Of a stretch of DNA of 64,000 nucleotides, positions 12,746 through 63,980 are shown one piece after another. The stretch spans positions 147,304,543-147,368,542 of the forward strand of contig NC_079211.1 in the NCBI RefSeq assembly GCF_029633865.1. The letters run 5' to 3'. How positions within the stretch are numbered: the stretch's first letter is position 1; each line of letters opens with the position of its first letter. The notes beneath the pieces are model-generated. The model was not told the origin of the DNA. It saw only the letters and a list, made by a program, of their open reading frames with translations, and made no database searches. Position numbers and translations under genes: made by a program. Origin of the DNA: Lampris incognitus (taxonomy: Eukaryota > Chordata > Actinopteri > Lampriformes > Lampridae).

Positions 12746-13049
12746 GATCAGCACACCGGTGTCCAACCACACCCGGTACTGTATATACCTGTTTTAGAAG
12801 ACTCCAGCTTCTTGTCCCGTCATCACTCCATCATGGCTTCCAGTTTGATGTGCCACCTCACAGAACAGTGTCCCGTCATTACTGTGCTGGGAATTTCTAC
12901 AGAAGGCTGATCCAGGAAAGGCATATTTATGAACTCCTGAACATTTCAAATTTTTTGAACTCCTGGACATTTCAAGTTTTTGAACTCCTGGACATTTCCT
13001 TTCAGTACAGAGTCAGTTTTTCATGTGGAAACACATTGAAAACGTCTCT

Positions 13050-14336
13050 ATGCCACATTGTGCTTTGACAAACTGATTTGGAGTCACATCATCTCAAGCC
13101 TCCCACCCACTTTTGACACACACCAATTTGCCTACAGAGCAAATAGGTCCACAGAGGATGCTGTAGCCACATCTCTCCACACCGCCCTGACCCACCTAGA
13201 GCAGCAGGGGAGCTACGCCAGGCTGCTCTTTATGGACTTCAGCTCTGGATTCAACACCATCCTCCCCCACAGACTGGCGACCAAACTGACAGAACTGGGC
13301 CTTGCTTATTCCATCTGCCTCTGGATTAAGGACTTTCTGTCTGAGCACCCACAGAGGGTCAGAGTAGGCCCCCCCACATCTCCTCAGCTTCAGCACTGGC
13401 TCCCTACAGGGCTGTGTGCTGAGCCCCCTACTCTACATCCTGTACACACACGACTGCACCCCCGCTCACTCCAGCAACACCATCATCAAGTTTGCAGACG
13501 ACACTACGGTGGTGGGGCTCATCTCTGGGGGGATGAGTCTGCATACCGGGATGAGGTGGAGCGGCTGTCTGTGTGGTGCAGGGAAAATAACTTGATCCTC
13601 AACACCTCCAAGACAAAGGAGCTGATTATAAACTACAGGAGGAACCAAACGGACAGTCATCCCCTTTTCATTGGCAGGGACTGTGTGGAGAGTGTCTCGG
13701 ACTTCCGGTTTCTGGGCATACACACAGAGGAGGGCCTGACCTGGAGCATTAACACCACAGTGCTGGTTAAGAAGGCACAGCAGAGACTCTACTTCCTGAG
13801 GATCCACAGGAAGAACCACCTTACTGCTTGTGTTCTTCTACCGCTGCTCCATAGAGAGCATACTGACCTACTGCATCTGTGTCTGGTTTGCCAGCTGCAC
13901 AGTAGCAGAGAGGAAAGCGCTCCAGAGGGTCATCACCACCACCCAGAAGATTATCGCATGCCCACTCCCCTCCCTGGAAGACCTATACAGTTCCCGCTGC
14001 CTCAAAAAAGCCCATGGCATCCTCAAGGACCCATCCCACCCAGGACACCATCTGTTTGAACTGCTGCTCTCGGGCAGACGTGACAGGACAATAAGAGCTC
14101 GGACAAACGGACTAAAGAACAGCTTCTATCCCCGAGCCATAACCGCACTAAATGCTAAGTCTTGATTTCTGACTCTTTGTGCAATATGTTGGTGTCCAGC
14201 AGAATGTAGAAATGAATGTGTGTGTGTTTTATGTTTTTCATTCTTTCTATACTGATCTTTGCACTGATAAGAACTGCACTTTCAAATGTCGTTGTACTTG
14301 TACAATGACAAAGTTCTATTCTATTCTATTCTATTC
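13050..14336 (+). pseudogene. LINE reverse transcriptase, 5'-truncated and frameshifted
   Basis: The protein starts at 13058 within the RT domain. Seen in order are FDTHQFAYRANRSTEDAV, LLFMDFSSGFNTILPHRL (first catalytic Asp block), ADDTTVVG-like sequence readable near 13496 in a shifted frame, WCRENNLILNTSKTKELIIN, and YCICVWFASCTVAERKALQR in the frame of 13830-14165. At least two frameshifts separate these blocks. The 3' end, TTGTACAATGACAAAG followed by (TTCTA)n at 14316-14336, is typical of fish L2/Rex1-like LINEs. Apurinic endonuclease sequence is absent. It is an inactive copy. Confidence 0.85.
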
Positions 14337-15930: not shown

Positions 15931-17476
15931 AGTGAATTAGCCTCGCTCGAGCTGTGGTTGCTAGCTTGTGAATTGAGTTTGAAGTGCTTGGAAATTTCCC
16001 AAACTTTCCGTCTGTTGCTGCTCTGGAAAAACAAAGCAAAACAAGGTAATGCGTCTAGTTCATAAATAATTTACTTCAGTATAGTTCAACTGAGTAAAAG
16101 CTAACTCATCTGATACAACTTGTACAGTAGCGACGCACTGGAATGACTTTGGCCATATTGTATGTTTGGTTCATTTTGTGCATGCGTCCAGCCCGCTCAC
16201 ACGAAATCTGAGATTTTTTTTTTTTTAAAGCGGGATTTAATTTTATTTTGCACCTTATTGAAATAATTATGCTGTGGGAGTGCAGGAATGAGGAGACAGA
16301 GAGATCGAGTCGAGTCAATTCCGTTTACTCGCCACACAAAACAACACCGATACAGCACAATTCCTCGTGGCAACCAGCTAACCGGTAGGCTGCTGCAAAC
16401 ATGGCTCCCCGGAAACCCCAAGCAGTGCCTACTTCAGCACTCTTAAAATGTCTGCCTTAAAGGAGCAGCAGCCCCCGGTGAATCTACCCTCAAAATGTGT
16501 ATCACCACAATGCACACTTTATTGAATTATTGTATGTCTGTTTAATTTGTTACCAGGGTGGGTTTATGATTTACATGGTACTTCACTGGATGCAATTCAA
16601 CTTAATTTGCGCTTTATGTAAAACTTTATTGAATTCTATGTGCAACTAGTTGTTTGGAGAAATTAAATTTGCAAGGTTAAAGGGCATGTATGAAAAAGTG
16701 TAAGCATGCAAAGTATTGCAAAACAATCAATCAAGTTGCAGCGCTTTTCTAGCTGCAACAGCCACTAAAATCAGTACTGTAATTTTAAAGTTCATGTGAA
16801 TGCAATGTGCATGATATAGATTACAGTTTGATATTCATGAGATTTCTCCGACCCCTTACGGGTCAGGTTTTTTTTTTTTTTTTTTTTTATCTTTCCAGTG
16901 AAATAGATGGTGAGCCTTCCCACTTGGCTCTAGAGAGGGACAGTATTCTGAGATACCAACGTGCGGTGTGTTAGGCCCAACTTCTGCAAACACCGTCGCA
17001 CTCAGCCTCATCATTCTTGTTTTCTCCTTTCACAGTCATCCCCATGCACACACACCCTAATTTTACAGGAATTCTGAACTCATACTTACCCTTGGACTTA
17101 TTCTTGGACTCTAGACTTGACTCAAAACACTACACTTAATTTTCATTCCCTGGAACTGTGAATTAGGCAGTTACTATATTGTTTATCAGCAAGTCTGTGA
17201 ATGTTCTCATTCATCCAGGTCATGGTTATCCAAAGGAGTTGAATCAAGTGCAACTGGACTGTGTTTATCAGCAAATATATTTTCTTTGTCATTGTGTATG
17301 GTGCCGACATAGATCTTTTTTCTTTTTTTTTCAAATTGCTTGTTCTACTACAAAGCCGGCATACTGTTTACATTTAACCTTTTGTCTCTGAGTCTCATTT
17401 AAGCATTCCACTTTGCTCCAGTAGCCGAACCTCACTGGTCCAAAATATTAACAATCAGTCTGTTATAGATGTTACA
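15931..17476 (+). repeat. 5' LTR, truncated on its left side
   Basis: It matches the 3' LTR from its GAGTTAGCC block to GTTACA but lacks the first several hundred bases (those at 21426-22230). The border lies at a SINE fragment. It contains a T22 run at 16867-16888 and a 237-bp nested insertion at 16273-16509. A primer-binding-site candidate (TGGCGAGCTGGGCAGG) begins about 7 bases after the LTR end. Confidence 0.75.
16273..16509. mobile_element. 237-bp solo-LTR-like insertion
   Basis: It starts TGTGG and ends CCACA and is flanked by ATGC on both sides (16269-16272, 16510-16513). The other LTR copy has the uninterrupted site with a single GC/ACAC junction at 28481. These are the signs of an LTR element reduced to one LTR, or of another short TG...CA element. 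Confidence 0.65.
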
Positions 17477-20239: not shown

Positions 20240-21190
20240 TACAAGGTTGAGCTTTGATTTTGGAGACTCTCCCTTACCCACTGAATGGAAGGAACAAGTA
20301 ACAAATATGTTGAATTCCATGCCAGATGTCTTTTCCCATCATGATCTGGATTTTGGACATACAGATAAGGTCAAACATCATATCAAGCTCAGCAATGAAA
20401 TGCCTTTGAAACACAGCACATCCAGTACATCCCCATGATGTGGATGTGTTAAGGAAACACCTTCAGTAACTCCTTGACTCGGGAGTTATACGAGAGTCCA
20501 AGTCCCCGTTTGCTTTTCCCATAGTTGTCATGAGGAAGAACAATGGTTCTGTTCATCTTTGTGTAGACTTCAGAAAGCTAAATCTTCAGACCATCAAGGA
20601 TGCGTATGCCCTCCCAAATGTAGAGGAGGCGTTCTCTGCTCTAGTTGAGTTGAAGTTGTTCTCTGTTCTGGATCTTAAATCGGGAGATTATCAAATTGAA
20701 ATAGAAGAATCCAACAAGCAGAAGACAGTGTTCGTTTGCCTGCTAGGATTTTGGGAATTTAACAGGATGTCCCAAGGAATCACAAATGCACCATCAACCT
20801 TCCAACGATTTATGGAGAAGTGTATGGGAGAGATGAACCTAAAGGAGGTTTTAGTGTTCATTGGTGACCTGATAATTTTTTCATCATCCTTAGAAGAACA
20901 CGAGCAGTGTCTGACACGTGTACTACAACAACTGAAGGAATACGGACTGAAGCTGGTTCTGGAAAAATGTGAAATACCCTGGTCTCGGAGCAGGGCATGG
21001 AAACAGACTCAGAGAAGATCAAGGCCCTAACAACTTGGCCCATCCCCACCAATCTGAAGGAACTTCGGTCTTTTTTAGGCTTTGCTGGATATTACAGAAG
21101 GTTCATTCAGGGGTACTCTCAAATTGTCAAGACCCTTAACGAACTAACCTCTGGTTATCCACCATTTAGAAAGGGAAGAAAAAAACCCGA
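20240..21190 (+). pseudogene. Reverse transcriptase remnant with mutated active site
   Basis: The sequence covers VFSHHDLDFG...VKHHIKL, then VVMRKNNGSVHLCVDFRKLN (from 20524), FSVLDLKSGDYQIEI (first catalytic Asp) and FNRMSQGITNAPSTFQRFME. The usual xxDD turn is changed to VFIGDLIIFS (Gly at 20863-20865 for the first Asp). The thumb/connection block RSFLGFAGYYRRFIQGYS lies near 21066-21120 in another frame. RNase H and integrase are absent: the sequence jumps from SGYPPFRKGRKK to non-coding DNA before the polypurine tract. Confidence 0.85.
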
Positions 21191-22112: not shown

Positions 22113-23036
22113 AAATCAAAATCAAAAAAGAATAACATAAGAAATAGAAGAAAACCCAGGAATCAAGCTAAAACAGATTCTACTGGAGACAACTTCGACC
22201 TTACCAAAGTGGTACCTAATTACATTGAGCATAAGTGAGTTAGCCTGGCTAGATCTGTGGTTGCTAGCTTGTGAATGAGTTTGAAGTGCTTGGAAATTTC
22301 CCAAACTTGCCGTCTATTACTGCTCCGAAAAAAAACAAGGTAATGCGTCCAATTCATAAATAATTTACTTCAGTATTGTTCAATTGAGTAAAAGCTAACT
22401 TATCTGATGCAGCTTGTACAGTAACAATGCACTGAAATGACTTTGGCCATATTGTATGTTTGGTTTTAGAAACTGTGTGGCTTGACTGGGTATGCCATTT
22501 TGTGCATGCATCCAGCTCGCTCACACGAAATTGAAACGGTGTGGCTTACTGGCGGTGGTAGCTCTAGACCAATTTTAGTCGGGGGGGGGGGGGGCAGGCT
22601 GGGGCCAGTTGTGTTGTCACAGAGGCACATTCAACCCAGGACAAAAGAGAGAAGAGGGTATTCAAGCTTTCAAATTTTTTAGGTCAGTATATAACATAAT
22701 AGCGCGCAAAAAAAACCCCCAACATAAAATACCATGATTTTTATTTGTTTCAGTAACAGTATTTGCTTCAGTAACTTACAGTTAGTTATTTCTTTCAGTA
22801 GCAGTATTGGTTTCAATAACTTACAGTTACAATTTTATCAAATTTAAATTTTGAAAACAAAGTGAAACACATTCCTGTTAGCTTCAGCTCAAGTTACAGC
22901 ACATTCTTTGTTGCAGCACTTCTTTATAAGGCTCAATGAACAGTACAAGCTTTACTGGACTAGAGGGTCTCTGCTTCCCAGTCTGTATTTTCCTTTCTAA
23001 AAGTTCACATTACAGCAACTGTATTCTGCATTTTTT

Positions 23037-23315
23037 TTAATGATTTTTGGCAAACCGATCAACAAATGAGTCAAGATTCAAAGCCTTTGCCTTCCTAGAT
23101 TCAATACTTAGTACACCCAGATTGCTCAATCTCTCATCGGTTATGGTGGACCTGAGGTAAGTTTTCACCAGCTTCAGTGTAGAAAAACTCAGCTCACAAG
23201 CAGAACTCATTGGGATCGCAACTGCTATTTTGCAGAGTCTGAAGAGCTCAAAAAACGCTTCTTTATATGGCCCAATGAACAGTACCAGCTCTACTGTACT
23301 AGAAGGTCTCTGCAT
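23037..23315 (-). pseudogene. hAT transposase C-terminal dimerisation domain
   Basis: It contains IPMSSACELSFSTLKLVKTY and LRSTITDERLSNLGVLSIES, the hallmark hAT C-terminal dimer motif. It ends VDRFAKNH before a stop. An approximately 86-bp part (23258-23343) is repeated at 22919-23004, so the 3' end of the transposase has been partly duplicated. Confidence 0.85.
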
Positions 23316-23395
23316 CCCAGTCTGTATTTTCCTTTCTGAAATTTGGCTGAACTGGTGTAGTTCATTTCACTTGAACACAATTCGTTGAAAGCTGG

Positions 23396-27185: not shown

Positions 27186-28538
27186 AATGGAATAGCTCTT
27201 CATCTGTCTCTCCTTCCTGCTCTGTGCCCTCACTTTGAAAACCAGTCTCTCCAACTAACAAGACCTCTGGCTTTCTCTCTGTGGCGCTCTTCACGTCCTG
27301 CTGTTTCTCTTCAGCTCTCTCAACACCTGGATCATCTGGCTCTGTCTCAATGTCTGCCTCATCATTGTCGTTTTTATTTTTGGGGGGCAGTGAAATAGGA
27401 CATAATATCCTTTTTTTCTCTTCATTTTGATGATAACTGTAGAGCAAAAACGATGGAGAGGAATGCACGACACTTGAGCAACCCAGACTATTAATATACC
27501 GTTGCTGGCTTGCTTGAATTAATGTGTTGCGGTAGCCTTTGTGCTTACATTTCACAACTATATAGCAATACCGATGGACATGAATGTATAGCATGCCATC
27601 AGCTCGGGCGAACCGTTCGTGAAGAGAGAAATTTTCCTCCAAACACTATTGCAAAGCTTACAACTAGTATTAACCCTTTCATGTGTAACATATTTATTGT
27701 GCTATGTAGCGCACGTTACGCTACGTGGTTCGTTATGTTTTCATTAGCGTTACCGAGCTTCTCGTAGTAATCAGTTAGCCTTTGCTGTGTTTTTTTAATG
27801 TTAAATCGCTGCTTCCTCAAAGCTAAAATAGCTAGAATTTTTATAATCTAGTTTTCTGATCGCACTGGTTTTAGCATACACGCCAAACGGCTAATCACAC
27901 CGGCGTGGCCATATGTGTGACGGGGTTAATGCAAGCAAACTGTTGGCTGTAGCTGTTTACACTGGCTGCTGGTAAGTTAACTAGTCAACAACAACATCTC
28001 CTGACCAGAAGTCTGACCTTGTAGCATTTGCACAAACAAAATAGTTTTGCTCACCTTCAATTCTTCGTGGTAGTCTCACAACGTTTAGCTTTGATTCTTG
28101 TTCTGGTCAGAGCTGACAGGTGGTGGGTAGCCTACTTTCTTTTGCACTTCAGCCAGCCAGTGGCGGTGTACCGCGCTAAGGGATCCCATTAGAATGTGGA
28201 ACCACATTTGTTCCGCCTTTCGCGTCAGCACAATTCATCCCAAGAAATCATTAATTTTATTATTATTGTGGGCTCTTCGTCCGGAGGGCGACCAGAGGGC
28301 GTGTCCAAGCTCAGTTTTACAGGGCACTGGTCCCTGTTTGCCCCTCCCCAGTACCGCCTATGCTTACTAGGTACACCATTTTGTGCATGTGTCCAGCCTG
28401 CTCACTCAAAATCAGTGAGAATGTTTTGGGTTTTTTTAAACGAGGGATTTCATTTTATTTTGCACTTTATTGAAATAATTGTGCACACTTTATTGTCTTA
28501 TTGTATGTCTATTTAATTTGTTACCAGAGTGGGTTTAT

Positions 28539-29074
28539 CAGAATCAGAAACACTTTGTCGTTTCATTTCATGCAGTTGCACACATGAAATGAAACGAAAC
28601 ATCGTTTCCCCCAGCCCACAGCAGCGCAACACAGACAAAAACACATCCAAAAACTACAAGAAAACACGTATCCAAACTAACACATTCGTATATCTAAACT
28701 AAAAACCCTCACTGTCCAGGAGAACGAACGCCAGCCAGGGTGACTGTCGGAACTGCCGGTCTTCATGGGCTAGCAGTTAGCTTAGCCTGCCCTGCCTCCA
28801 CCCTCTGTCAGACCACCCTCGGTGTTACCTCTTCAGGCACAGCTCCAGGCAGGGCCGTGCTCCCTGGGCCCACAGGATACAGCAGACCAAGCTCCCCCAG
28901 CCGATCCAGCGCCAGCTCTCCCGGCCATCAAATGAAGACGAACTTAGACGTGGACAAAGACACTGCACAGACGGTACTGTGTGAGGCCGCCGCAAATGTG
29001 AATTCACACCGGAACTGGGTGAGGCCGCTGCAAACATGAATTTGTGCCGCCATCTTCCCACACCGGAAGTGGAA
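28539..29074 (-). mobile_element. Non-autonomous retroposon family D, copy 2
   Basis: It is inverted, starting CAGAATCAGAAACACTTTGT and ending CATCTTCCCACACCGGAAGT. It is inserted in the gypsy 3' LTR, where the 5' LTR shows the uninterrupted GGGTTTATGATTTAC. It has one GCTAGCAGTTAGCTTAGCC block, unlike copy 1. Confidence 0.75.
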
Positions 29075-29149
29075 GTGATTTATACTGTTGTTATTCAATG
29101 AATAGAATTCAACTTATTTTGCAATTTATATAAAACTTTATTGAATTCT

Positions 29150-29821
29150 CTTTTTTTTTCCCATGTACACAATTTATTATTCTTAGTGCTCGTTTCTGAA
29201 GACAGTATATGGGTCATGTTTGATCTGATGAGTACTAGCCCAAGTTATATTACAATAATTAATATACGGATAAACCACTGAATAATATAACATAGTGGCT
29301 GCCTCAGTGTTGACCAAAAACACTAACGACCAAATCTGAGGAAAACCCAGTTTGATCAACAGTTTTGGAGTGACTGTGCTTCTCAGAGTTGGCTGCTATA
29401 TGGAGGGAGGTGGAAAAGGTCGGTACCCGAGGAGTCGTCGTACTGCAGATACGTTGCGACACAGGTCCATTAGGAACGGGTTGGTTGTTTCTGAGTTGAA
29501 CAAGAGTCTCCATTTCTTTGCTTCAAAAAGGTATAGACTGAAGGAAAGACAGATGCCCTCTGTGAGGGGAGATACTGAACTATCCAGGGTTTCACACCCA
29601 CACACACAAATGAGGAAATGTAAAAATGAAAGACATACAAAGTACTGGTCCCCATCCACTCAAGTTCCTGACTTATATTACTGACCTAAACCAGCAAATG
29701 AACCTGAAAGCTAAGTCTATACACGCGGCTCACGCCTATCTTTTCAGACACGATGATAATGCATAAGTCATACAGCTCAGTTACTTTCAGCTCTAGCCAG
29801 CGTCACTCGCGGGCTGTGTCC
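29150..29821 (-). mobile_element. 672-bp retroposed sequence of unknown origin
   Basis: It is flanked by a perfect 16-bp direct repeat AACTTTATTGAATTCT (29134-29149 and 29822-29837). The 5' LTR copy has this sequence once. It begins with a poly(T) run, so it looks like a minus-strand copy with a poly(A) tail inserted by LINE machinery. The body resembles none of the other repeats in the window. It could be a processed pseudogene, a new SINE or a 5'-truncated LINE. Confidence 0.65.
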
Positions 29822-30240
29822 AACTTTATTGAATTCTATGTGCAGCTAGTTGTTTGGAGAATTTTAATGTGCAAGGTTAAAGGGCATGTATGAAAAAGTG
29901 GAAGCTGCAAAGTGCCTGATATAAATTACAGTTTGATATTCATGAGCTTTGTCTGAGCCTGTCTGTTCACAGGTCAGGTTTTTTGTTTTTTGGTTTTTTT
30001 TTTTGGATCTTTCCATTGAAATAGATGGCGAGCCTTCCCACCTGGATCTAGAGAGGGACAGTATTCGGAGATACCGCCCTGATAACTGGACAGGTTCTAC
30101 CCCACTCGGGAGACCCAACTTGTGCAAACACCCCCACACTCAGCCTCATCATTCTCATTTTCTCCTTTCACAGTCCTTCCCACGCACACCAACCCCAATT
30201 TCCCAGAACTCTGAACTCCTACTTACCCTTGGACTCCTCT

Positions 30241-30898
30241 GCTTCCGGTGTGGGAAGATGACTGTGCGAATTCACGTTTGCAGCGGCCTCACCCAGTGCC
30301 GTCCATGCAGTGTCTTTGTCCACGTCCGTGTCTAAGTTTGTCCTCGTTTGATGGCTGGTAGAGCTGGCGCTGGATTGGCTGGGAGGGCGGGGCAGGCTAA
30401 GCTAACTGCTAGCCCATGCAGACCGGCAGTTCTGATAACACCGAGGGTGGTCTTGCGGCGGCCTCACCTGGTGTTGACTTTGGTGTTTTTGATGTCGTCG
30501 TGAGGAGTGTGGGGAGGTGTGTCGAGGCTGCCTGGCTGGGAGACCTTGGTCTGCTTCATCCGGTGGGCCCAAGGACCTTGGCCCCTGCCTGGAGCTGCGG
30601 TCTGACAGAACGCGGAAGCGGGACGGGCTAAGCTAACTGCTAACCCATACAGACCGGTGGTTCCAACATTCATCCTGGCTGGCGTTCGTTCCCTTGGACG
30701 GGGATTTTTTGTTTAGTTTGGATATATGCGTTAGTTTGGGTATGTGCGTTAGTTTGGGTATGTGTGTTCTTGTAGTTTTTGGATGTGTTTTTGGCTTTGT
30801 GTTGTACTGCTGTGGGCTGGGGGAAACGGTATTTCGTTTCATTTCATGTACGCAAGCGCATGAAGTGAAATGACAAATGAAAGTGTTCCTGATTCCTG
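30241..30898 (+). mobile_element. Non-autonomous retroposon family D, copy 3
   Basis: It is in forward orientation, starting GCTTCCGGTGTGGGAAGATG and ending AAAGTGTTCCTGATTCCTGA. It has two GCTAACTGCTA blocks and short tandem repeats of GTTTGGGTATGTGCGTTA near 30725-30765. It is inserted in the gypsy 3' LTR. Confidence 0.75.
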
Positions 30899-31031
30899 AC
30901 TTTGTCTTGGACTCTGGACGTGACTCAGAACACTAGACTTAACTTTCATTCCCTGGAACTGTGCATCAGGCAGTTGCTGTATTGTTTATCACTAAACATA
31001 TTTTCTTTGTCATTGTGTATGGTACCGACAT

Positions 31032-31055
31032 ATATATATATATATATATATATAA
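31032..31055. repeat. (TA)n microsatellite
   Basis: A TA dinucleotide run in the gypsy 3' LTR is absent from the corresponding place in the 5' LTR near 17310. Confidence 0.85.
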
Positions 31056-31245
31056 ACAAATTTTTTTCAAATTCCTTGTTCCAGTACAAAGCCGTTATAC
31101 TGTTTACATTTAACCTTTTGTCTCCGAGTCTCGTTTTAGCATTCCACCGTGCTGCAGTAGCCGAGCCTCGCCGGTCTGTAATATTATCCATCAGTCCTTA
31201 TAGGGAGGCATTACACCTGCATCTCAACAGGGTTTCTTCTGACCC

Positions 31246-31684: not shown

Positions 31685-32575
31685 TCTTTGGGCTTTTTGA
31701 AAGTGCACGCGAGCAGTCACTGGTTTTCATGAGAACATACTCGGTCACTTCACAGTATTCACACACTGGCGATTTGTCCAGTTTGTTGTTTGTACCCGCT
31801 GCCTTCCTCTCGTCGAGCCGTGATCTCAACTTTTATCTTTTTCTTTCTGCTGATGCTTAATGTTCCTTTGTCAGTTTTTAAGGCCTCATTTTTTTTAATC
31901 TTTTGTGCAAAATGAGCACGGCCAAACCAAATGAGACGAAGATGAAGTAAACAATGTGAACTAAGACAGATAAACTCAGACTCGTGCGAGACCAGATGAA
32001 CTGAACTGATAGACAGAAAGTAGTGCACCCCGCTGCAAGACCTGATGAGGCAAGCAGTCGCTTGTTTTCAACTGGATGTTTTCCCGGTAGCTTCCCTGCA
32101 TAGTGTGTGTGTGTGTGTGTGTGCGTGTGTGTTTGTGTGTTTAGAAACTTTCTATTCTTATCGTAAGGTCGGGGAAATTTAGATCGAGTGGTTTCTCTGT
32201 CAGCAGATTAATAGGTTTCGTTCTCAGAGGCTGTGGTGGATTACAGCACATGTGTCTTTATTTAGTTAATTTCTGAATTTATCTGGCAGTGCCTGTCTTG
32301 AGAAATGTCGAGTCTGGTCGAAGTGATAAGTGTTTACATCTGCCAGGAGTGCTGCTGCTGGGGGGGAAGCAAGTTCTCCTTTTCAATCGAAAAGTGACAA
32401 GATGAGTTTTGAACTACTTGTGCTGTGCAGCAACACCAAAAAAAAGTCATATCCAAACTAGCCAAAATCCTCCCAGGGGTGCTGTGCCGATGTAGCAATA
32501 AAAAAAAAAAAACACACACACACAAAACGTACCAAATTAGACATATCAAGAAAAAAGAGAGATGCAAAAAGGACA
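31685..32575. other. Unassigned DNA
   Basis: It contains a (TG)n run at 32105-32143 and a short A run near 32498-32511. No exon is recognised. Confidence 0.45.
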
Positions 32576-32895
32576 CATTATGATGTCATAGATGTGCATC
32601 ACAACTGCTGTGTGACTTGGTTGTGTACAGAAAGATACAGGATCATTGTTTTGAGTGTGTAATTATGAAGTAGGTCTAGTATCGACAGCACGTTGTCAGT
32701 TGAGTACCCGAACCGCTTATCCTGCTCTCAGGGTCGGGGGGATGCTGGAGCCTATCCCAGCAGTCATTATGATGTCATAGATGTGCATCACAACTCCCGT
32801 GTGACTTGGTTGGGTACAGAAAGATACAGGATCGTTGTTTTAAGTGTGTAATTATGAAGTAGGTCTAGTATCGACAGCACGTTGTCAGTTGAGTA
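32576..32895. repeat. 131-bp direct duplication around a 58-bp SINE filler
   Basis: Segments 32576-32706 and 32765-32895 match at about 95% without gaps. Between them, 32707-32764 is a tail piece of SINE family A. The filler shares the unusual ACCCGAACCGC and GGTCGGGGGG forms with the SINE at 35010-35074, the likely donor. TA and CATT are shared at the joints. Confidence 0.85.
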
Positions 32896-32941
32896 ACATG
32901 ATATATTATTCGCATCATATCCTATTTATTTATTTATTTAT

Positions 32942-33684
32942 TGGATTTTTTTTTTCCCCACACCGTTTTCTCCCAATTGTACCTGGCCAGGCAGCACAGT
33001 GGCACAGTGGTCAGCGCGGTCGCCTCACAGCAAGAAGGTTCTGGGTTCGAGCCCCGGGGTAGTCCAACCTTAGGGGTCGTCCTGTGTGTGGAGTTTGCGT
33101 GTTCTCCCCGTGTCTGTGTGGGTTTCCTCCGGGTGCCCTGGTTTCCTCCCACAGTCCAAAGACATGCAGGTCAGGTGACTGTGTTTATGTCGGCCCTGTC
33201 CAGGGTGTCTCCCCGCCTGCCGCCCAATGACTGCTGGGATAAGCTCCAGAATCCCCGCGACCCTGAGAGCAGGTCCGGATAATGGATGGATGGATGTACT
33301 TGGCCAACTACCCCACTCTTCTGAGATGTCCTGGTCGCTGCTCCACCCCCCTGCCAATCTGGGGAGGACTGCAGACTACCACATGCCTCCTCCCATACAT
33401 GTGGAGTCAACAGCCGCTTCTTTCCACCTGACAGTGAGGAGTTTCACCAGGGGGACGTAGCGCGTGGGAGGATCATGCTATTCCCCCCTCCCCCTGAACA
33501 GGCGCCTCGACCGCCCAGAGGAGGCGACCAGGACACATACCCACACCCGTCTTCCCACCCCGCAGACATGGCCAATTGTATCTGTAGGGATGCCCGACCA
33601 AGCCGGAGGTAACACAGGGATTTGAACCGGCGATCCCCGTGTTGGTACACAATGGAATAGACTGCCACGCTACCCGGACGCCCC
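32942..33684 (-). mobile_element. SINE family B interrupted by SINE family A
   Basis: The two halves (32942-32989 and 33296-33684) are a reverse family B copy. A family A SINE is inserted between them with an 11-bp near-perfect target duplication, GTACCTGGCCA/GTACTTGGCCA. Family B insertion therefore came first here. Confidence 0.85.
32990..33295 (+). mobile_element. SINE family A nested in SINE family B
   Basis: It has the head GGCAGCACAGTGGCACAGTG with GGGTTCGAGCCCC and the tail GATAATGGATGGATG. It is somewhat shorter than the 10354 copy, because part of the middle after GGTCAGGTGA is missing. Confidence 0.9.
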
Positions 33685-33770
33685 TCACATCATATCCTGA
33701 CTGGACGATTGTGCTTTTGCAGCAGTCCAGCAGAGCTAAAAGTTAGCTGGTCTGGATCATGGTCTGGATC

Positions 33771-34005
33771 AGCGCTTCCCAACCCAGTCCTCAAGGACCC
33801 CCTATCCTGCAGCTTTTCATTGTAACCCTGCATAGGTAGCCCCGCTTGTACTTACTCAACCAATCATCTCACAACACTTAATTATGCGAGGTGTGCAGCA
33901 TCTGTCATTGCTGATTGGTTGAATAACTACAAACGGGTACCTATTCAGGGTTGCAAAGAAAATCTGCAGGAGAGGGGGTCCTTGAGGACTGGGTTGGGAA
34001 ACACT
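33771..34005. mobile_element. Short MITE with long inverted ends
   Basis: The left end GCTTCCCAACCCAGTCCTCA mirrors the right end TGAGGACTGGGTTGGGAAAC. The CAG...CTG tips and AAGGACCCCC/GGGGGTCCTT extend the arms to about 35 bp. It looks like a hAT MITE. Its right half plus flank is copied at 39151-39344. Confidence 0.75.
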
Positions 34006-34994
34006 GATCGGGATCAGGTCCTCTGCTAACCGACGACCCGGAGAAGCAAACCAAGTGAGAGAATGCGAAGGGGAGGCTGAGAGAGAGAGAATAGATTTTG
34101 ACAACAACATTAATGAGGATTGTAATGTCTTCAAAAACACAATCTTTAACGTCTTTCAGATGCACTCACAAACATTTTTGGAAGAACCCCCCCCCACACA
34201 CACACACACACACACACATTCTACACACACACATTCTACACAGGTGGTACAGCTAAATGTGAGACAAATGTCGGATTGTGAGTGGATTAGATAGAAGCCG
34301 CGTTCATGAGGCGCTTCACATTTTTAAAAAGAAGGAAAGAATTCTCATTTTGTTGTCAGCTTGGTGATCTCAGGAAAACATCTTCAACACAACAGGCGGT
34401 CGGTCACATGACCTCACAAGGAACAGCGGAGACCCTCCATCCACCTGGTCCTCACACAATACTTAACCAACTCATCAGTGCAGCAGGGTTAACTAGCGTG
34501 TGTGTAAATGACCGCGGCGTTGGGGTTTGTACCGTCACCCCTAGTGAAAGGATTTGGGGTTCGCGCCTCACCCCTCCGTCCATGTGTTGCGCTGGTTCGA
34601 ATTGGTTTCCTCCAGCAGTGACAAGTTGCGTGTGGATGATGAATTGCAGACTAGATTACCCACACAGCTATAACGGGTTTATGAATGACTGTGAGTGAGG
34701 GCCCTGTAATGGATCGGTGATGAGTCCAGGGTGTTTCCATGAGATCTGCACAATGCATGCTGGGATAGACTCCAATCCCATTAGAGGAATGTAATTTGCA
34801 AAATGAATGAAGGACTCGTCATTTTTTTAGAGTGTATTTCCAAGTCGGTGAGAGCATTACATCTTTAGAGCCGGTCGTGTCTGGATGTAATGTGGCTGTA
34901 TTGATGTGAGACTAGATGTGGGGTGGGCTTTTGTTTATGGTAATATGGTGATATATTTAATAATATAGAGTTTCCAACGGTAAGACACTACACC
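34006..34994. other. Unassigned DNA with (CA)n tract
   Basis: It has (AC)n at 34195-34218 with a shorter run after it, and a weak SINE-tail-like GCATGCTGGGATAGACTCCA near 34757. The 130-aa open frame at 34306-34698 has no recognised domain. Confidence 0.45.
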
Positions 34995-35364
34995 CATCCT
35001 TCCATCCATTACCCGAACCGCTTATCCTGCTCTCAGGGTCGGGGGGGATGCTGGAGCCTATCCCAGCAGTCATTGGGCGGTAGGCAGGGAGACACCCTGG
35101 ACAGGCCACCAGGCCATCACACAGGGCCGACATACACACACACACACACGCACACGCACACACACATTCACACCTAGGGGCGGTTTAGTACAGCCGAGTC
35201 ACCTGACCTACATGTCTTTGGACTGTGGGAGGAAACCGGGGCCCCCGGAGGAAACCCACGCAGACACGGGGAGAAGATGCAAACTCCACACAGAGGACGA
35301 CCTGAGACGACCCCCAAGGTTGGACTACCCCGGGGCTTGAACCCAGGACCTTCTTGCTGTGAGA
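34995..35364 (-). mobile_element. SINE family A, likely donor of the 32707 filler
   Basis: This reverse copy has TTACCCGAACCGCTTATCC and GGTCGGGGGGG in its tail block and a (CA)n expansion at 35135-35165. It ends near ACCTTCTTGCTGTGA, so the tRNA-like head is truncated. Confidence 0.85.
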
Positions 35365-38055: not shown

Positions 38056-39074
38056 CAAGTCCCCCTTCATGCATTTATCCGGTTTCTATGTGCTCATTAA
38101 GTTCCTTCACTGAAGGATCGGTTGTAAATATGTTATTGCTTGTCTATTTTGTCTCCTCGGCACTTTTTGCATGTCCATCCGTCTGGAAACGGATCCCTGC
38201 TCTGATGCTCCTCACATTTCTCCCATCATTATTTTCTTTAAAACTCGTTTCCTCGTCTGAATCAAGGGTCTCTTTGGATAGGGGGCGCTGTACATCATTG
38301 TTAATTGTCTTTTTTTAGTGAATTTGATGGCAACATAAAGTCCTAACGTGCTGAGGCGAGGAGTAAAAACTAGGTCCCCATAGATGGCGTCTATTCACAG
38401 GTTTTTCTGGAGACTTCCGCCCTCAAAATTTGGTCAAATTCTTGTGATTTTTTTTTTTTTTTGGAGTCCACTTGAGGGGTTCCTGATAAGACAGGCTGTG
38501 GAAGCGATGCAGGTTCACCTCTATGTCTTTGACTAGTTGAAGGGTTTTTAGTCCTTCGTCCTTTGAGCTGGTTGGTTTAACCTCTAAACTTTCTATTATC
38601 AACGCTGAACAAAGACAGCAGCACAAGTTAAATACTGCACTTTACGAGGCCCGTCAAAAGCAATCAATAGACAAGGACAAAGAAAATCCCAGATCAACAA
38701 TTTCCCACCGCAAAGGTTGTTTCGTATCTTTATGCATGTCTGAACATGGCCGGTCACGTGGAACCAACATGTAGGTCAGACCATCGTTACTGTTTTATGT
38801 CGATGACACAGCAGATTATCAGACTCGAGCAAATGGAGGAGAGCAAAGATGAATAAAAAGAAGAAGCAGGAGCCACACAAAAAAATCAAGCAAAATTTCC
38901 AAAGTCTGTGGCTATTTTCAGCCAAAACACGAAGAGAAAGCGGTGGTCTACGAGCACTTGGAAGCTGAGCTTACTTCTGACAGCAGCACAGCTTCCGGGC
39001 TGCGGCGCCTCCGCGGGAAGCATCCGGACTACACCCCTATCATTTTTTATGATGGGTGTCTTTCAGAACAACGC
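38056..39074. other. Unassigned DNA with BED-finger-like trace
   Basis: No intact gene. At about 38900-39045 one frame reads KVCGYFQPKHEEKAVVYEHL then EAELTSDSSTASGLRRLRGK and HP. The layout resembles a BED-type zinc finger of hAT transposases, but the CxxC pair has been lost. Confidence 0.35.
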
Positions 39075-39420
39075 AGGTCACCTTACATTAAAAGATGTAG
39101 TAAAATGGACAGTGTAAGAACACGTGGACCAGAGATGGGAAAAGCATCTCACAGCACTTAATTATGCGAGGTGTGCAACATCTGACATAAGTCACTGCTG
39201 ATTGGTTGAATAACTACAAACAGGTACCTATTCAGGGTTGCAAAGAAAATCTGCAGGAGAGGGGGTCCTTGAGGACTGGGTTGGGAAACACTGATCGGGA
39301 TCATGTCCTCTGCTAACCGACGACCCAGAGAAGCAAACCAAGTGAGGTCACCTTACATTAAAAGATGTAGTAAAACGGACAGTGTAAGAACACGTGGACC
39401 AGAGATGGAGAAAGCATCTC
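39075..39420. repeat. 76-bp direct duplication around a 194-bp copied filler
   Basis: Segments 39075-39150 and 39345-39420 differ at about 3 of 76 bases. The filler 39151-39344 matches 33871-34054, which spans the right half of the MITE at 33771 plus about 50 bp of its unique flank. CATCTC is shared at the left joint and GTGAG at the right joint. An 8-base difference inside shows later change in one copy. Confidence 0.9.
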
Positions 39421-40298
39421 GTAAGGAAGGCGATGTGACATTACAGTGGCTCTCAAATGAACATTTAGAAAAACTGTTCCCTTATCCGATTAACTGGATC
39501 TATTGCCTGAATAATCATTAGTCACAAGTGACAGCCCTACACTGTTTATTCATTTAGTTTTGGGGGGTTTACGTTGTTTACTCGGATTCAGAGGTAGGAG
39601 AATTTTCTCAACCCGTGCAGGAACACTTCACCCTTCAGTTTATCACAAACACCCAAATTCAACACGTCTGGTTTTCACTGGACAGGAAAGGTATGAACAA
39701 TTACCTGGAAAGTAACCCCTACCTAGAACCGTCAGACGAATGAAGTGAAGTAAAAACTACCAACATTTGCCTCTGAGACGTAGTGGAGTAGAAGTACAAA
39801 GTTGCTTAACATGGAAATGCTCAAGTAAATTACAGGTACCTCAGGTTTGTACCTCGGTACTTAGTGACATGACGCCGCTGGTGGTTAGTCGTGTTGACTG
39901 GGTTGTCGTCGTGTCTGTTTCCTGGAAATGAGCTCTCCTCTCAGATGTACAGAGCTGCACAGACCTTCAGGCGCCTTATCGCTCGTTCAACACGAATGGG
40001 GACGTTTGCGAATGCGTCGTGTGCGACGCACAGCGACCTCCCAGGGGATGGCGCCGTTGTCAAGCCACGTGTAATGGTTGCTCCGCTGGAGTAGCTGGGG
40101 TCCTCCGCTGCTGGGTCTGCCCGCCGTGTTTGGGCATCGTGGAAGTCTTTGAAACAGGACCTGGCTCCTCAGGAACCTGCATGTCACCAGACTCGTCCAT
40201 CGTTGTGACACGATGAGTCAAGATGAGTTCTGATGAAAAGGTGTTGAGTAAGGCTTATCCAGCGTTGGCTTCTTCTTCTTCTTCTTTCTTTCTTTCGT
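39421..40298. other. Unassigned DNA
   Basis: Open frames on both strands at 39890-40216 overlap but show no domain I recognise. Confidence 0.4.
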
Positions 40299-59100: not shown

Positions 59101-62100
59101 ACTGGCCCCCTACTGCCTTGTGGGATAGGCTATTTAGCCAAAGGCTAAGGGGCAGGGCAAACCCCGACAGAAAACCTCCGGAGGAGTAACCCCCCCCCCC
59201 CGAGACCAATTACTATGGCCCACTTGAATGTGGACATGTCCTGGTAATTGAGTCAAGGTTACCCCAGTTATGGGTTAAATAACAAAACAAACTACTGCCT
59301 TTCAGGCACCCTGGGAGGGGTAAAGGCTATGGGACCAGCCCAGACAGAAACTGGGTACTGAAGGAGTTGCGACCTCGGTCTATTATCAGCAAATGATAAG
59401 CATCGCTCGACTGCAGTCGAAGGATGATGACCTCCTAGCTGCTGCAGCCACAAGGACAACCCTTGTTTTTTGATGGGTTTACTCAGCAGGCTCAGTATAC
59501 CCAAGGAGTCACAGGAAGTCCTACCGGAGTCGGGCAGTGAATTGAGGTCAGCGCACAGGACAATGGGGATAGCGGACGGGTCGCAGGTGGGCGAGCCTGT
59601 GGCTACGGAGCCCGAGGCCCGCTCGGCGATGCTCTTCAGCTCGGACAGGAACATCATGGTCTGGATCAGCTTGACATCGGAGTACTCCGGGTCCCAGTGC
59701 ATGTGGGCATTGGCCACCAGGATCAGCTGCCTCTCCTGAAGGGGCTTCAGGCCTGGAAAGTGAGCAAAGGGATTGGAGGGAATTTTAGAAGAACATGCGA
59801 ACTCAACCAATCACAGACTTGAAGGAGCGAAAAAAATTTGGGAGTTCAAAATGTTAATTTGTCATTTCGCGGTCTAAGCATCGGCTTGGTGTCGATGCAG
59901 TTGCCCACTGGGGACTGGGGTTCGCGCCCCGGTCTCGTCAGATCTAACTATGGCCGGACTCGATGAAGCAGCAATCATTGGCAACGCTGTCTTCGGGAGG
60001 GGGGCGGAGTCGGCTCGTGTTCGTCATGTGAATGCGTCTCTGTGTGTGTCGGAAAAACAGTGGATCGGCTTGGATTCGCCTTGTCACGAAAGTGGGGAGG
60101 CGCTTTCCTTCGAGACTGCCGGCCGGAGAGATGCAGTTGGCGAACGCATGCAATACGAGGGTGGGTGTTTGAATTAAAATAGGGATCAATTGGCCACTAA
60201 ATTGGGAGAAAAAAGGGAAAAATCAGAAATAAATTTATTAAAAAAAAAATGTTAATTTGTCATTTAGACAAAAACTGTCAAACTTTTTTTTATCCCACCC
60301 ATCCATCCATTATCCAAACCGCTTCTCCTGCTCTCAGGGTCACGGGGATGCCGGAGCCTATCCCAGCAGTCATTTGGGTGGCAGGCGGGGGAGACACCCT
60401 GGACAGGCCGCCAGGTTGTCATAGGGCCCACACACACATTCACACCTAGGGACAATTTAGTAAGGCCGATTCACCTGACCTACATGTCTTGAAACCGGAG
60501 CACCTGGAGGAAACCCATGCAGACACGGGGAGAACATGCAGACTCCACACAGAGGACGACCCCCAAGGCTGGACTACCCCGGGGCTCAAACCCAGGACCT
60601 GCTTGCTGTGAGGTGACCGCACTAACCACTGTGCCACCATGCCGCTGAACTTTTTTATATAATGCATTTTATACATTAAAATTCAAGGCACTAAATGTAT
60701 ATGAGAACAAGGTATGGAGGAATGACCTCCATTTACTTTTAGGATATGAAAGAACGTGTGTGTGTGTGTGTGTGTGTGTGGTTCTCAAAGTCTCAGACTG
60801 TATTCTGTTCTGTTCTTACCACCAGAGAACATGCCCTTGTTGACCTCCAACAGGACGGCTACCCCGATGTTGTCTTTGGTCATCACTCTGTTCAGCATGA
60901 CCTCTGACCCCTCTGAGTTTGCCATGGCCACCTGGTTGAATTCCACCGTGTGTTTCTGCACCAAGGTAAATCTACAAGCAGACAGGCGGCGGAGAGAGAC
61001 TGCTATTCACTCTGAGAAAATGACAAGTGAATTAAAATACAAGATGAATATTCAGAGACCTCGGTCTTGTCATCAGGGATGGAACCCCTCAGACTCTCAG
61101 TTTTGCCCTTTTCCCTTCCTTTTGACCCCCAGGCCTAATGTTGTTCCCAGTTTTCACATCTCTGACTACAAACCCCAATTCCAATGAAGTTGGGACGTTG
61201 TGTAAAACGTGAATAAAAACCGAATGCAATGATTTGCAAATCCTTTTCGACCTATATTCAATTGAATACACTACAAAGACAAGATATTTAATGTTCAAAC
61301 TAATAAACTTTATTGTTTTTTGCAAATATTCTCTCATTTTGAATTTGATGCCTGCAACACGTTCCAAAGAAGCTGGGACAGGGGCAACAAAAGACTGGGA
61401 AAGTTGAGGAATGCTCAAAAAACACCTGTTTGGAACATTCCACAGGTGAACAGGTTAACTGGAAACAGGGGAGTGTCATGATTGGGTATAAAAGGAGCAT
61501 CCCCGAAAGGCTCAGCCGTTCACAAGCAAGGATGGGGCGAGGTTCACCACTTTGTGAACGACTGTGTGAGCAAATAGTCCAACAGTTTAAGAACAACGTT
61601 TCTCAATGTACAAACACAAGGAATGTAGGGATTTCATCATCTCCAGTCCATACTATCATCACAAGATTCAGAGAATCCGGAGAAATCTCTGCACGTAAGC
61701 GGCAAGGCCCAAAACCAACACTGAATGCCCGTGACCTTTGACCCCTCAGGCGGCACTGCATTAAAAACCGACATCATTGTGTAAAGGATATTACCACGTG
61801 GGCTCAGGAACACTGGGGAAAACCATCGTCAGTTAACACAGTTCGTCACTACATCTACAAGTGCAAGTTAAAACTCTCCCATGCAAAGCCAAAGCCAGAT
61901 ATCAACACCACCCAGAAACACCACCGGCTTCTCTGGCCCGAGCTCATCTGAGATGGACTGACGCAAAGTGGACAAATGTGCTGTGGTCTGACGAGTCCAC
62001 ATTTCAGATTGTTTTTGGAAATCATGGACGCCGTGTCCTTCGGGCTAAAGAGGAAAAGGACCATCCAGATTGTTCTCAGCCCAAAGTTCAAAAGCCAGCA

Positions 62101-63980
62101 TCTGTGATGGTATGGGGGCGTGTTAGGGCCCATGGCATCATGGGTAACTTGCACATCTGTGAAGGCACCATTAATGCTGGAAGGTACATACAGGTTTTGG
62201 AGCAACATGTGCTGCCATCCAAGCGACGTCTTTTTCAGGGACGTCCCTGCTTATTTCAGCAAGACAATGCCAAGCCACATTCTGCAGGTGTTACACCAGC
62301 AGGGCTTCGTAGTGAAAGAGTGCGGGTACTGGACTGGCCTGCCTGCAGTCCAGACCTGTCTCCCATTGAACATGTGTGGCACATTATGAAGCGCAAAATA
62401 CGACAACGGAGACCCCGGACTGTTGAGCAACTGAAGTCGTACATCAAGCAAGAATGGGAAAGAATTCCTCCTACAAAGCTTCAACAATCAGTGTCCTCAG
62501 TTCCCAAACGCTTATTGAGTGTTGTTAAAAGGAAAGGTGGTGTAACACAGTGGTAAACATGCCCCTGTCCCAGCTTCTTTGGGACGTGTTGCAGGCATCA
62601 AATTCAAAGTGAGTGAATATTTGCAAACAATATCAGTTTGAACATTAAATATCTTGTCTTTGTAGTGTATTCAATTGAATATAGGTCGAAAAGGATTTGC
62701 AAATCATTGTATTCTGTTTTTATTTACGTTTTACACAACGTCCCAACTTCATTGGAATTGGGGTTTGTAAATTCCCCACATTTATTTACAAAGTGTATGT
62801 TCAGTTAAAGCCCCCAAACCGCTTTGTCATCTCGCTTTTTCACCATTCTTAACCCAGGGAGGAGCATGCAGTGAATAAGACGGACTGGCGTAGATATAGG
62901 TGGTGCAGCCGGTGCAGTGGCACCGGGGCCCGTCGCTAGGGGGCATCCGTCAATATTTCTGCATGCATTGTCCTAGTCCAATGTTACGTGGCTGTTTTGA
63001 GCATGTGATGATAGTTTGTTTAGCGCGCGCAATATCGTTTACCTATCTAGCCTACCTAAGAAACGTGAGAAAAATAAAATCAAGCAAGCAAGCGTGAGTT
63101 ACACACATAAAAGTGGATGTAAAAAGAGGAAGGAGAGCAAGGAAAGAAAGGAAAGCTGCAATGTGTGCTGCGTGCGTGCCAAACCATGCAATCTACCAGG
63201 TTTTGAGTGTGATGTGTGCTCCCCTGTTACTGTCGAATGACCAGGCTATCAGCTATATTACAGCCTAGTTGCCTTGTTGACTTGTTTCATTGCCTTGTCG
63301 ACTGATGTGATTTAGAGACCGTCTGTTTAGGTTTCCCAACTCTGTCCGTGGTGCGTCCGCTCTCCGTGGTTCTGAAGTGTAGCCAATCTTTGACGTACTG
63401 ACCTTTACAATAACTCATCTGTGTCAACTTTGTCTGTTACTTTGATATTTCTATTTTATTTGTTATATTTTATGCTGCGAAGCACTTTGTGATTGTATAT
63501 CTGTGAAAGGTGTTATACAAAGAAATGACTAAAATTACTTCTAAACCCACCTAATGTGGTGGTGTGTGTGTGTGTGAGCGAGTGAGAGAGAGACGGGGGG
63601 GGGGGGCTACGAGGGTTGCTTGCACCACGGCCCATAATAAAAATGTTACGCCAGTGATAAGACGTCTACAACTTAACCCTGGGAGGAGCATGCAGTCAAT
63701 AAGACGTCTACAACTTAACCCTGGGAGGAGCATGCAGTCAATAAGACGTCTACAACTTAACCCTGGGAGGAGCATGCAGTCAATAAGACGTCTACAACTG
63801 AAAAGATGAAACGTGTTCTTCTCACTTCTCCGTTTTGAAGAACACCGCGCAGCCGTCCACGTGCTTCCTCTCCTGCTCCGACACCAGCTTGGCGCGGGAT
63901 TTGGGGCAGAAGTATCCGTTGTAGCCGCGGTCTTTCAGCGTATCCAGGAACAGGGTGTAGTACTGCTCCGTCTCCACCTC
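55888..63980 (-). CDS. cnot6l: CCR4-NOT deadenylase subunit 6-like, last five coding exons
   Basis: Exons on the minus strand, 5' to 3': 63826-63980, 60820-60971, 59525-59752, 58551-58753 and 55888-56109. Phases match at every joint and give 319 aa ending LNGLHLPVHR. This is the C-terminal part, about 57% of a usual 555-aa protein. The leucine-rich repeats and gene start lie beyond the right edge. The protein is the EEP-type (exonuclease/endonuclease/phosphatase) catalytic subunit that shortens mRNA poly(A) tails within CCR4-NOT. Metal and catalytic residues are in place: the Glu opening the first exon (EVETEQYY), ADLNSLPD, GVIDYIFFSKT and PSDHFSL. Residues such as ENNITGCPHPHIPSDHFSLL and the SPTCDPS insert favour CNOT6L over CNOT6. 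Confidence 0.88.
57091..57533 (-). mobile_element. SINE family B copy in cnot6l intron
   Basis: It is complete in reverse with the GGCGTCCGGGTAGCGTAGCG head, GCCGGTTCGAATCCCCGTG B box and a poly(T)/CTTTT border. It has the same orientation as the host gene's transcript. Confidence 0.85.
57790..58312 (+). mobile_element. Internally deleted LINE joining 5' and 3' ends
   Basis: The right part (58127-58312) encodes ELLGKRRRGRPKRRFMDVVR and EDMQVAGVTG and ends TGGCGCCCCCTAACGGGAGC followed by (AGT)n, as in the LINE at 48271. The left part is non-coding GC-rich 5'-type sequence. No reverse transcriptase lies between, so this is a short non-autonomous derivative. Confidence 0.65.
58551..58753 (-). 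CDS. cnot6l: cnot6l exon with VVEYLSNGGVAENHKDFKEL
   Basis: It begins with two bases completing Gly and encodes VVEYLSNGG...YTNYTYDFK. The donor is GTAAGT. The 67 complete codons match CNOT6L closely across the substrate-binding side of the EEP domain. Confidence 0.92.
58754..59524 (-). other. cnot6l: cnot6l intron, unassigned repeat DNA
   Basis: It contains a C11 run near 59190-59200 and about 450 bp (59005-59460) that looks repeat-derived, but I cannot name it. Confidence 0.5.
59525..59752 (-). CDS. cnot6l: cnot6l exon with ADLNSLPDSG
   Basis: It encodes LKPLQERQLILVANAHMHWD, the PEYSDVKLIQTMMFLSELKS helix and IPIVLCADLNSLPDSG. It holds the His and Asp/Asn residues of the catalytic centre. 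The donor is GTAGGA, a weaker GT site. Confidence 0.92.
59868..60245 (+). mobile_element. SINE family C with 20-bp target duplication
   Basis: It is flanked by AAAATGTTAATTTGTCATTT at 59848-59867 and 60246-60265 (part overlaps the A tail). The head has TGGGGTTCGCGCCCCGGTCT, a B-box-like motif. The tail is AAATTTATT plus a poly(A) run. It is the only copy in this window. Confidence 0.85.
60296..60646 (-). mobile_element. SINE family A in cnot6l intron
   Basis: This reverse copy runs from CCCATCCATCCATTATCC to the AGCGGCATGGTGGCACAGTG head. A part of the body is missing near 60489 (TACATGTCTT/GAAACCGG). Confidence 0.85.
60753..60780. repeat. (TG)n microsatellite
   Basis: About 13 TG units lie in the cnot6l intron. 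Confidence 0.9.
60820..60971 (-). CDS. cnot6l: cnot6l exon with FTLVQKHTVEFNQVAMANSE
   Basis: It runs from the acceptor TGCTTGTAG to the donor GTAAGA. It encodes 50 complete codons, including MLNRVMTKDNIGVAVLLEVN and MFSG. Phases 2 and 1 at the two ends fit the neighbouring exons. Confidence 0.92.
61169..62767 (+). mobile_element. Tc1-like transposon with about 215-bp inverted repeats
   Basis: It is bounded by TA at 61167-61168 and 62768-62769. The ends CAAACCCCAATTCCAATGAA and TTCATTGGAATTGGGGTTTG are exact inverses. Similarity between arms continues to the GCTGGGACAGGGGCA block (61370-61385) and its mirror at 62565-62580. The full length of 1599 bp is typical of intact fish Tc1 elements. 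Confidence 0.95.
61531..62556 (+). pseudogene. Tc1 transposase, frameshifted
   Basis: The N-terminal helix-turn-helix part is readable at 61531-61741 (MGRGSPLCERLCEQIVQQFK, SSPVHTIITRFRESGEISAR). The catalytic part is readable at 61920-62556 (LRWTDAKWTNVLWSDESTFQ, LFQQDNAKPH, WPACSPDLSPIEHVW), giving the DDE triad with D, D and E present. Between them the frame shifts and has stops near 61740 and 61950. Apart from these breaks the protein is well preserved, suggesting a fairly recent copy. Confidence 0.9.
62850..63799. repeat. 42-bp minisatellite split by a hAT MITE
   Basis: One diverged unit (TTAACCCAGGGAGGAGCATG...) lies at about 62849-62882. The others (AAGACGTCTACAACTTAACC, CTGGGAGGAGCATGCAGTCA) lie at 63659-63799. 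The last three complete units are nearly identical. It ends only 26 bp from the donor of the cnot6l exon at 63826. Confidence 0.85.
62883..63656. mobile_element. 774-bp non-autonomous hAT element
   Basis: A perfect 8-bp target duplication ATAAGACG lies at 62875-62882 and 63657-63664. The ends GACTGGCGTA and TACGCCAGTG are inverted repeats apart from the first base and one position. Both are followed inwards by GGGCC/GGCCC and GGTGCA/TGCACC blocks. No transposase frame is present. Confidence 0.9.
63826..63980 (-). CDS. cnot6l: cnot6l exon starting at the catalytic Glu
   Basis: It follows the acceptor TGTCCCCAG. It encodes EVETEQYYTLFLDTLKDRGY, NGYFCPKSRAKLVSEQERKH and VDGCAVFFKTE plus two bases. 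The first residue corresponds to the metal-binding Glu of the QE motif of EEP nucleases, so the splice junction lies next to it. Confidence 0.92.

Follow-up and report, generated by a model that had tools for sequence, protein, structure and literature searches.

The window, that is, the whole 64,000-nucleotide stretch of Lampris incognitus DNA analysed here, carries between positions 39075 and 39420 a three-part scar, read like all features below on the forward strand. A 76-bp segment, A (39075-39150), which begins with AG and ends with CATCTC, is followed by a 194-bp filler (39151-39344) and then by a second copy of the same segment, A' (39345-39420), which is identical to A at 73 of 76 positions and lies exactly 270 bp from it. 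The filler matches 33871-34057, 5.2 kb away, colinearly, on the same strand and with no rearrangement; the two differ by six substitutions and by 7 bp missing from the donor, and a seventh mismatch of the alignment, at 39144, falls within A's own sequence. BLAST searches within the window gave E values of 1e-86 for filler against donor and 1e-30 for A against A', and by these values neither match is due to chance. An earlier note on this DNA had described a local 76-bp sequence on both sides of a 194-bp filler copied from 5.2 kb away, and alignment of the donor and target regions bears out both statements. The donor match given there as 33871-34054 was right in source and start, while its end is corrected to 34057.

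Donor and target share bases at both joints, and with these bases included the donor interval spans 33865-34059. On the left, CATCTC at 39145-39150 recurs at 33865-33870, an overlap that a random joint would show with a probability of about 0.0014. On the right, the overlap is AG (39345-39346 and 34058-34059, with AG also at 39075-39076), which at a probability of about 0.16 is within chance. The microhomology characteristic of MMBIR/FoSTeS is thus found at the left joint, the two bases at the right being within chance. Of the joint sequences previously proposed, CATCTC stands, whereas GTGAG on the right is mostly donor sequence, with a target overlap of AG.

The donor is the right half of a MITE together with its flank. 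The element, which we take to be hAT-type, is near-palindromic and occupies 33770-34006, with arms that we read as 33770-33866 and 33912-34006 around a loop at 33867-33911. It is bordered by 8-bp repeats (33762-33769, GTCTGGAT, and 34007-34014, ATCGGGAT) that agree at six of eight positions. The family has terminal inverted repeats and an 8-bp target duplication: in 22 of 26 copies compared from the genome the 8-bp flanks agree at six positions at least (at all eight in 13 of these), and in the other four they do not. Since the donor MITE is intact in place, with both ends and its flanking repeats (33762-34014), the filler arose by copying and not by excision. In single-stranded form the donor reaches folding energies of -90.7 and -98.1 kcal/mol, with z of -16.4 and -18.6, energies that none of 200 shuffles reached, and CATCTC at 33865-33870 straddles the border between arm and loop, given our reading of the arm as ending at 33866.

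The copied piece does not end with the MITE. We searched the window's own assembly (1.48 Gb, 537 contigs) with 39000-39500 and scored 40 of 1,309 first-look candidates. Among these 40, the query aside, only the 34-kb donor matches the whole filler to its end; 38 other places contain the filler's MITE part and stop 0-16 bp beyond the MITE end, and the remaining listed matches are to the opposite MITE arm. A genome search with 95 bp of donor flank, in which very common words are skipped, gave two places, the donor (bases 1-95) and the filler (bases 1-54); in it, the 53 bp of flank that were copied (34007-34059) were found only at the donor and in the filler. The filler therefore has one identifiable source, as defines a templated insertion with local duplication. 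These searches agree with the earlier claim that the copy includes about 50 bp of unique DNA past the MITE end, and the finding that was to overturn it, namely that the 34-kb flank with its MITE half is a genome-wide repeat, did not emerge, as the flank occurs at two places only.

The abundance of the MITE family allowed individual mutations to be assigned. We aligned 26 of the 38 other listed places that match the filler's MITE part. At two positions donor and filler stand apart from the family: both have G at 39168, where all 26 other copies have A, and both have G at 39259, where 25 copies have T and one has C. Three substitutions are confined to the donor (opposite 39154, 39178 and 39222), all 26 copies agreeing there with the filler. 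Similarly, 7 bp of the MITE loop are absent from the donor (between 33904 and 33905) and present in the filler and in 26 of 26 other copies, so at this gap the filler, as judged from the panel, keeps older sequence than its donor. Together, these results show the 34-kb site as the source and the 39-kb site as the recipient of the copy; in the simplest case copying would predate the donor's 7-bp deletion. On the filler's side, the base at 39195 differs from the donor and is found in two of the 26 copies, and a filler-specific difference at 39191, opposite the donor gap, is shared by one copy. Two further differences between filler and donor sit in the flank, outside the reach of the MITE panel.

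The target, too, lies in repetitive DNA, and its relatives suggest what the site looked like before the event. A is part of an old dispersed repeat (38647-39532), whose relatives at 24 loci are 61-74% identical, each over its best-matching stretch; a genome search with 38600-39141 gave 30 scored candidates at 66-85% identity, the query itself and A' aside. The 24 loci, which are part of the listed matches, were compared with the window from which the filler and one A had been removed. Seventeen cross the site in a single alignment that takes in 27 bp or more to the left of A and 20 bp or more to its right, and none of the 17 has an insertion of more than 25 bp at the site. The other seven are interrupted, end inside A or do not cover it. 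No match to the filler was detected in any of the 24 loci at E up to 1; at the same threshold 21 loci had a single match to A, one had A split into two pieces and two had none. The likely ancestral state is thus a single A with no filler, as read from paralogues and not from the orthologous locus. Such paralogues speak to the likely order of states, not to the timing of the change at the orthologous locus.

We consider it highly probable that one germline mutation turned X-A-Y into X-A-filler-A-Y by a template-switch event. Template switching during break repair or replication restart, which the earlier note had proposed from the structure, is thereby supported as the best reading, on the same structural grounds. 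In the sequence of steps that we infer, a 3' end terminating at the end of A (...CATCTC) would anneal 5.2 kb upstream, to the CATCTC that lies on the edge of the loop in the MITE palindrome. Synthesis towards the right would then copy some 190 bases, crossing the loop and the right arm and running 53 bp into the flank. Finally, the copied strand would come off and, using the AG overlap, re-engage where A starts, 76 bp behind the point that it had left. That annealing took place there, that synthesis ran rightwards and that all happened in a single step would each follow from this reading. A and A' differ at 3 of 76 positions and filler and donor at 6 of 191 (Fisher p 0.72, with low power at these lengths), and equal divergence of the two pairs is what one event predicts. 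A two-step history, in which a tandem duplication was followed by a later filler exactly at its joint, would need a coincidence. Given the position of CATCTC at the border of arm and loop and the strong folding of the donor, it is possible that an exposed MITE hairpin loop served as the landing site, a model that draws on this one case.

Several routes could have produced this outcome. We put first the collapse of a replication fork followed by microhomology-mediated restart (MMBIR/FoSTeS), to which we give a little less than an even chance. Another route, in which the ends of a break were staggered by 76 nt and, after fill-in, became joined by way of a captured patch, would fit the 76-bp duplication equally and seems to us rather unlikely overall, if a serious contender. 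In this connection, one study (PMC8355091) ties small tandem duplications to staggered breaks through Pol alpha-primase fill-in at 3' overhangs. What probability remains we leave to other routes, such as RNA-templated patching. MMBIR/FoSTeS, a patched staggered break and theta end joining leave the same sequence, and the pathway is not proven.

Polymerase theta end joining alone, acting on a break whose 3' overhangs were about 76 nt long, might have made both the duplication and the filler, and it would account for the shared bases at both joints. A review (PMC12426944) describes the repair of Cas9 breaks in early zebrafish embryos as dependent on microhomology-mediated joining, and in mouse cells lacking Ku80, CTC1 or STN1 theta makes tandem duplications that take in nearly the whole 3' overhang, often with microhomology (PMC8355091). 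The insert itself fits this route less well. Theta-type templated insertions are generally shorter than 25 bp, according to PMC12426944, and in worms most mapped inserts come from very close to the break, about 3% map to distant sites and synthesis makes about one error per 30 bases (PMC5068794). The present filler is not a short flank-derived insert; it measures 194 bp and came from 5.2 kb away. The copy also looks accurate for such an error rate: the 150-bp MITE part has one or two filler-specific changes where five would be expected, with P of 0.04-0.12 from synthesis errors alone and of 0.005-0.02 when a later change of 1.6% (half of the observed divergence) is assumed in addition. If all four unassigned changes, over 191 bp, are counted as the filler's, these values become 0.24 and 0.04, so that fidelity, with P anywhere from 0.005 to 0.24 by assumption, is weak evidence. 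It is therefore chiefly the length and the distance, and fidelity only weakly, that speak for replication-type copying rather than theta alone, and we regard theta alone as improbable. Of the two routes named before, MMBIR stands and polymerase theta fits less well.

The remaining explanations account for single features of the scar. Retrotransposon machinery might have inserted reverse-transcribed donor RNA, the 76 bp then being a target-site duplication, as in class 1 templated insertions. The insert is indeed flanked by a direct repeat, and RNA-derived templated insertions have been described (PMC5110952). Inspection of both joints, however, revealed shared bases instead of poly(A) or poly(T), and the same source gives class 1 a poly(A) tract and class 2 no flank duplication. 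With its 76-bp duplication and no poly(A), the scar fits neither, and we hold this origin to be very unlikely. An independent MITE insertion or transposition into A might be suggested by a filler that is mostly MITE and by the abundance of the family (1,309 first-look candidates, 40 scored). Against it stand the half element, the 53 bp of donor flank, a duplication of 76 and not 8 bp and the substitutions private to donor and filler. The occurrence of the donor flank at two genome places contradicts it outright, and its probability is close to nil. Creation of a spliceosomal intron by the duplication was considered because A begins AG/GT: AGGT occurs at both copies, the 270 bp are divisible by three, and removal of 39077-39346 restores an open frame (38853-39521) whose joined form is open for 133 aa. 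Yet the site is an old decayed repeat, with a stop in or just after A in 16 of the 17 spanning relatives; the frame has no Pfam match on either side of the joint, and the 3' splice site is without a pyrimidine tract. Intron gain by AGGT duplication was dropped because of the decayed repeat, and we judge it slightly less probable even than the retrotransposon route. Protein-family searches with eight proteins near the scar gave nothing relevant, the one weak match being below the cut-off.

A second scar of similar build, absent from the earlier note, lies 6.4 kb from the first. Here, A2 (32576-32706) is followed by a 58-bp filler (32707-32764), which comes from the interior of a common SINE-like repeat and lacks both of its ends, and by A2' (32765-32895), which is identical to A2 at 126 of 131 positions. 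At the joints, two bases (TA) and four bases (CATT, p 0.016) are shared. Over 65 alignment columns the filler differs from 35010-35074 by a single homopolymer gap and by no substitution, and this place scores best among the 34 other matches in 264 kb, the next twelve listed having two to five mismatches over 56-64 bases. In the genome as a whole, with 40 of 1,730 candidates scored, 11 listed places slightly outscore it (64 bases, 98%, no gap). As higher-scoring places exist, 35010-35074 is likely the donor on account of its nearness (2.3 kb), and is not proven. If only 13 such close copies were present genome-wide, one would fall within 2.3 kb by chance with a probability of about 4e-5; as 13 is a lower bound from the scored list, the true figure may be much larger. 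For the flanks, 40 candidates were scored of 179 (32765-32990) and of 229 (32450-32704). Among the 39 other listed places for the former, 35 run at least 15 bp past the right end of A2' in one alignment. For the latter, eight of 39 run at least 10 bp past the left end of A2, and most of the 39 begin inside the copy. These relatives point to a flank within an old repeat and to a probable single-copy ancestral state for this scar as well.

The two scars have similar divergence (9/267 for the first, 5/195 for the second, p 0.79), and if 35010-35074 is the right donor, both donors would lie between both targets. By our arithmetic, two random placements in this stretch would fall 6.4 kb apart about once in 20, a figure resting on a survey that is not a clean count. 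We raise, as a speculation that is probably wrong, that both scars (39.1-39.4 and 32.6-32.9 kb) stem from one germline episode of serial template switching within about 7 kb, in which the two templates lay between the targets and the exposed loop of a MITE hairpin primed the first switch. If true, this would be a small germline cluster resembling chromoanasynthesis, in which MITE palindromes act as landing sites.

That survey, which gives no clean rate, took in 264 kb around the site, including 12.5 kb of N. It listed 134 direct-repeat pairs, many of which we read as minisatellites or internally repetitive repeats. One filter set removed both scars and another removed the second, through overlapping pairs. 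A stricter filter (flanks of at least 40 bp, at least 93% alike, with exactly two copies in the region), which 76 pairs entered, kept the first scar alone, as two overlapping forms; the second probably failed since its flank has an old relative, at about 9.3 kb, which raises the copy count to three. An 87-bp direct repeat (22919-23005 and 23258-23344, 89.7%) surrounds a 252-bp spacer without a match in the 264 kb and is possibly an older scar of the same A-filler-A type. A perfect 20-bp direct repeat (59848-59867 and 60246-60265) encloses 378 bp that match -77564 to -77938, left of the window, at 91%, and looks like an ordinary mobile-element insertion with a target duplication.

Other features of the window include a 239-aa open frame at 61837-62553 with a DDE_3 transposase domain (Pfam PF13358, E 1.9e-14) and open frames with reverse-transcriptase matches (PF00078) at 13040-14056, which also matches the ALKBH8_N model, and at 20470-21027. 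The segments 16511-17468 and 28482-31203 form a colinear old duplication with blocks 78-94% identical, the second copy being interrupted by extra sequence. The suspicion that a neighbouring gene has a retrocopy at 16.5-17.2 kb was dropped, as the blocks look non-coding.

Donor, target, joints, copying direction and, via paralogues, the ancestral state of the first scar could all be read from one assembly, because target and donor both lie in repeats whose relatives act as outgroups. Using old repeats as built-in empty sites, and MITE panels to assign mutations, is an approach for repeat-rich genomes that could test how often and how accurately repair copies nearby patches. The linked second scar raises the question of whether such events cluster.

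Published MMBIR/FoSTeS cases are generally much larger than tens to hundreds of bases, the range spanned by the present scar. Joint microhomology, a retained donor and a backward jump that leads to a duplication are common to both, and complex duplications with templated insertions are reported for MMBIR/FoSTeS (PMC5120786, PMC6258378). Like polymerase-theta templated insertions, copying here starts at shared bases; in contrast to them, the insert is much longer, its source more distant than typical and the copy apparently more accurate. The human templated insertion polymorphisms, as classified in PMC5110952, have either a flank duplication with poly(A) or neither. As in those, the insert was templated from another genomic place and the donor is intact, whereas a 76-bp flank duplication without poly(A) puts the scar in neither class. 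In the literature, microhomology, template switching, an inverted repeat, a hairpin, a transposable element and filler are mentioned together in a paper on a fly inversion. In rice, tandem or partly tandem duplications with insertions from ectopic donors have been explained by the patching of staggered breaks (Vaughn and Bennetzen 2014, as summarized in PMC7407515). The first scar resembles this type in its direct flank duplication, in sequence copied from elsewhere and in a size within 10-1000 bp, and differs from it in its host and in its source, half a MITE with its flank 5.2 kb away. The first scar is thus a well-documented case of an already known kind of mutation.
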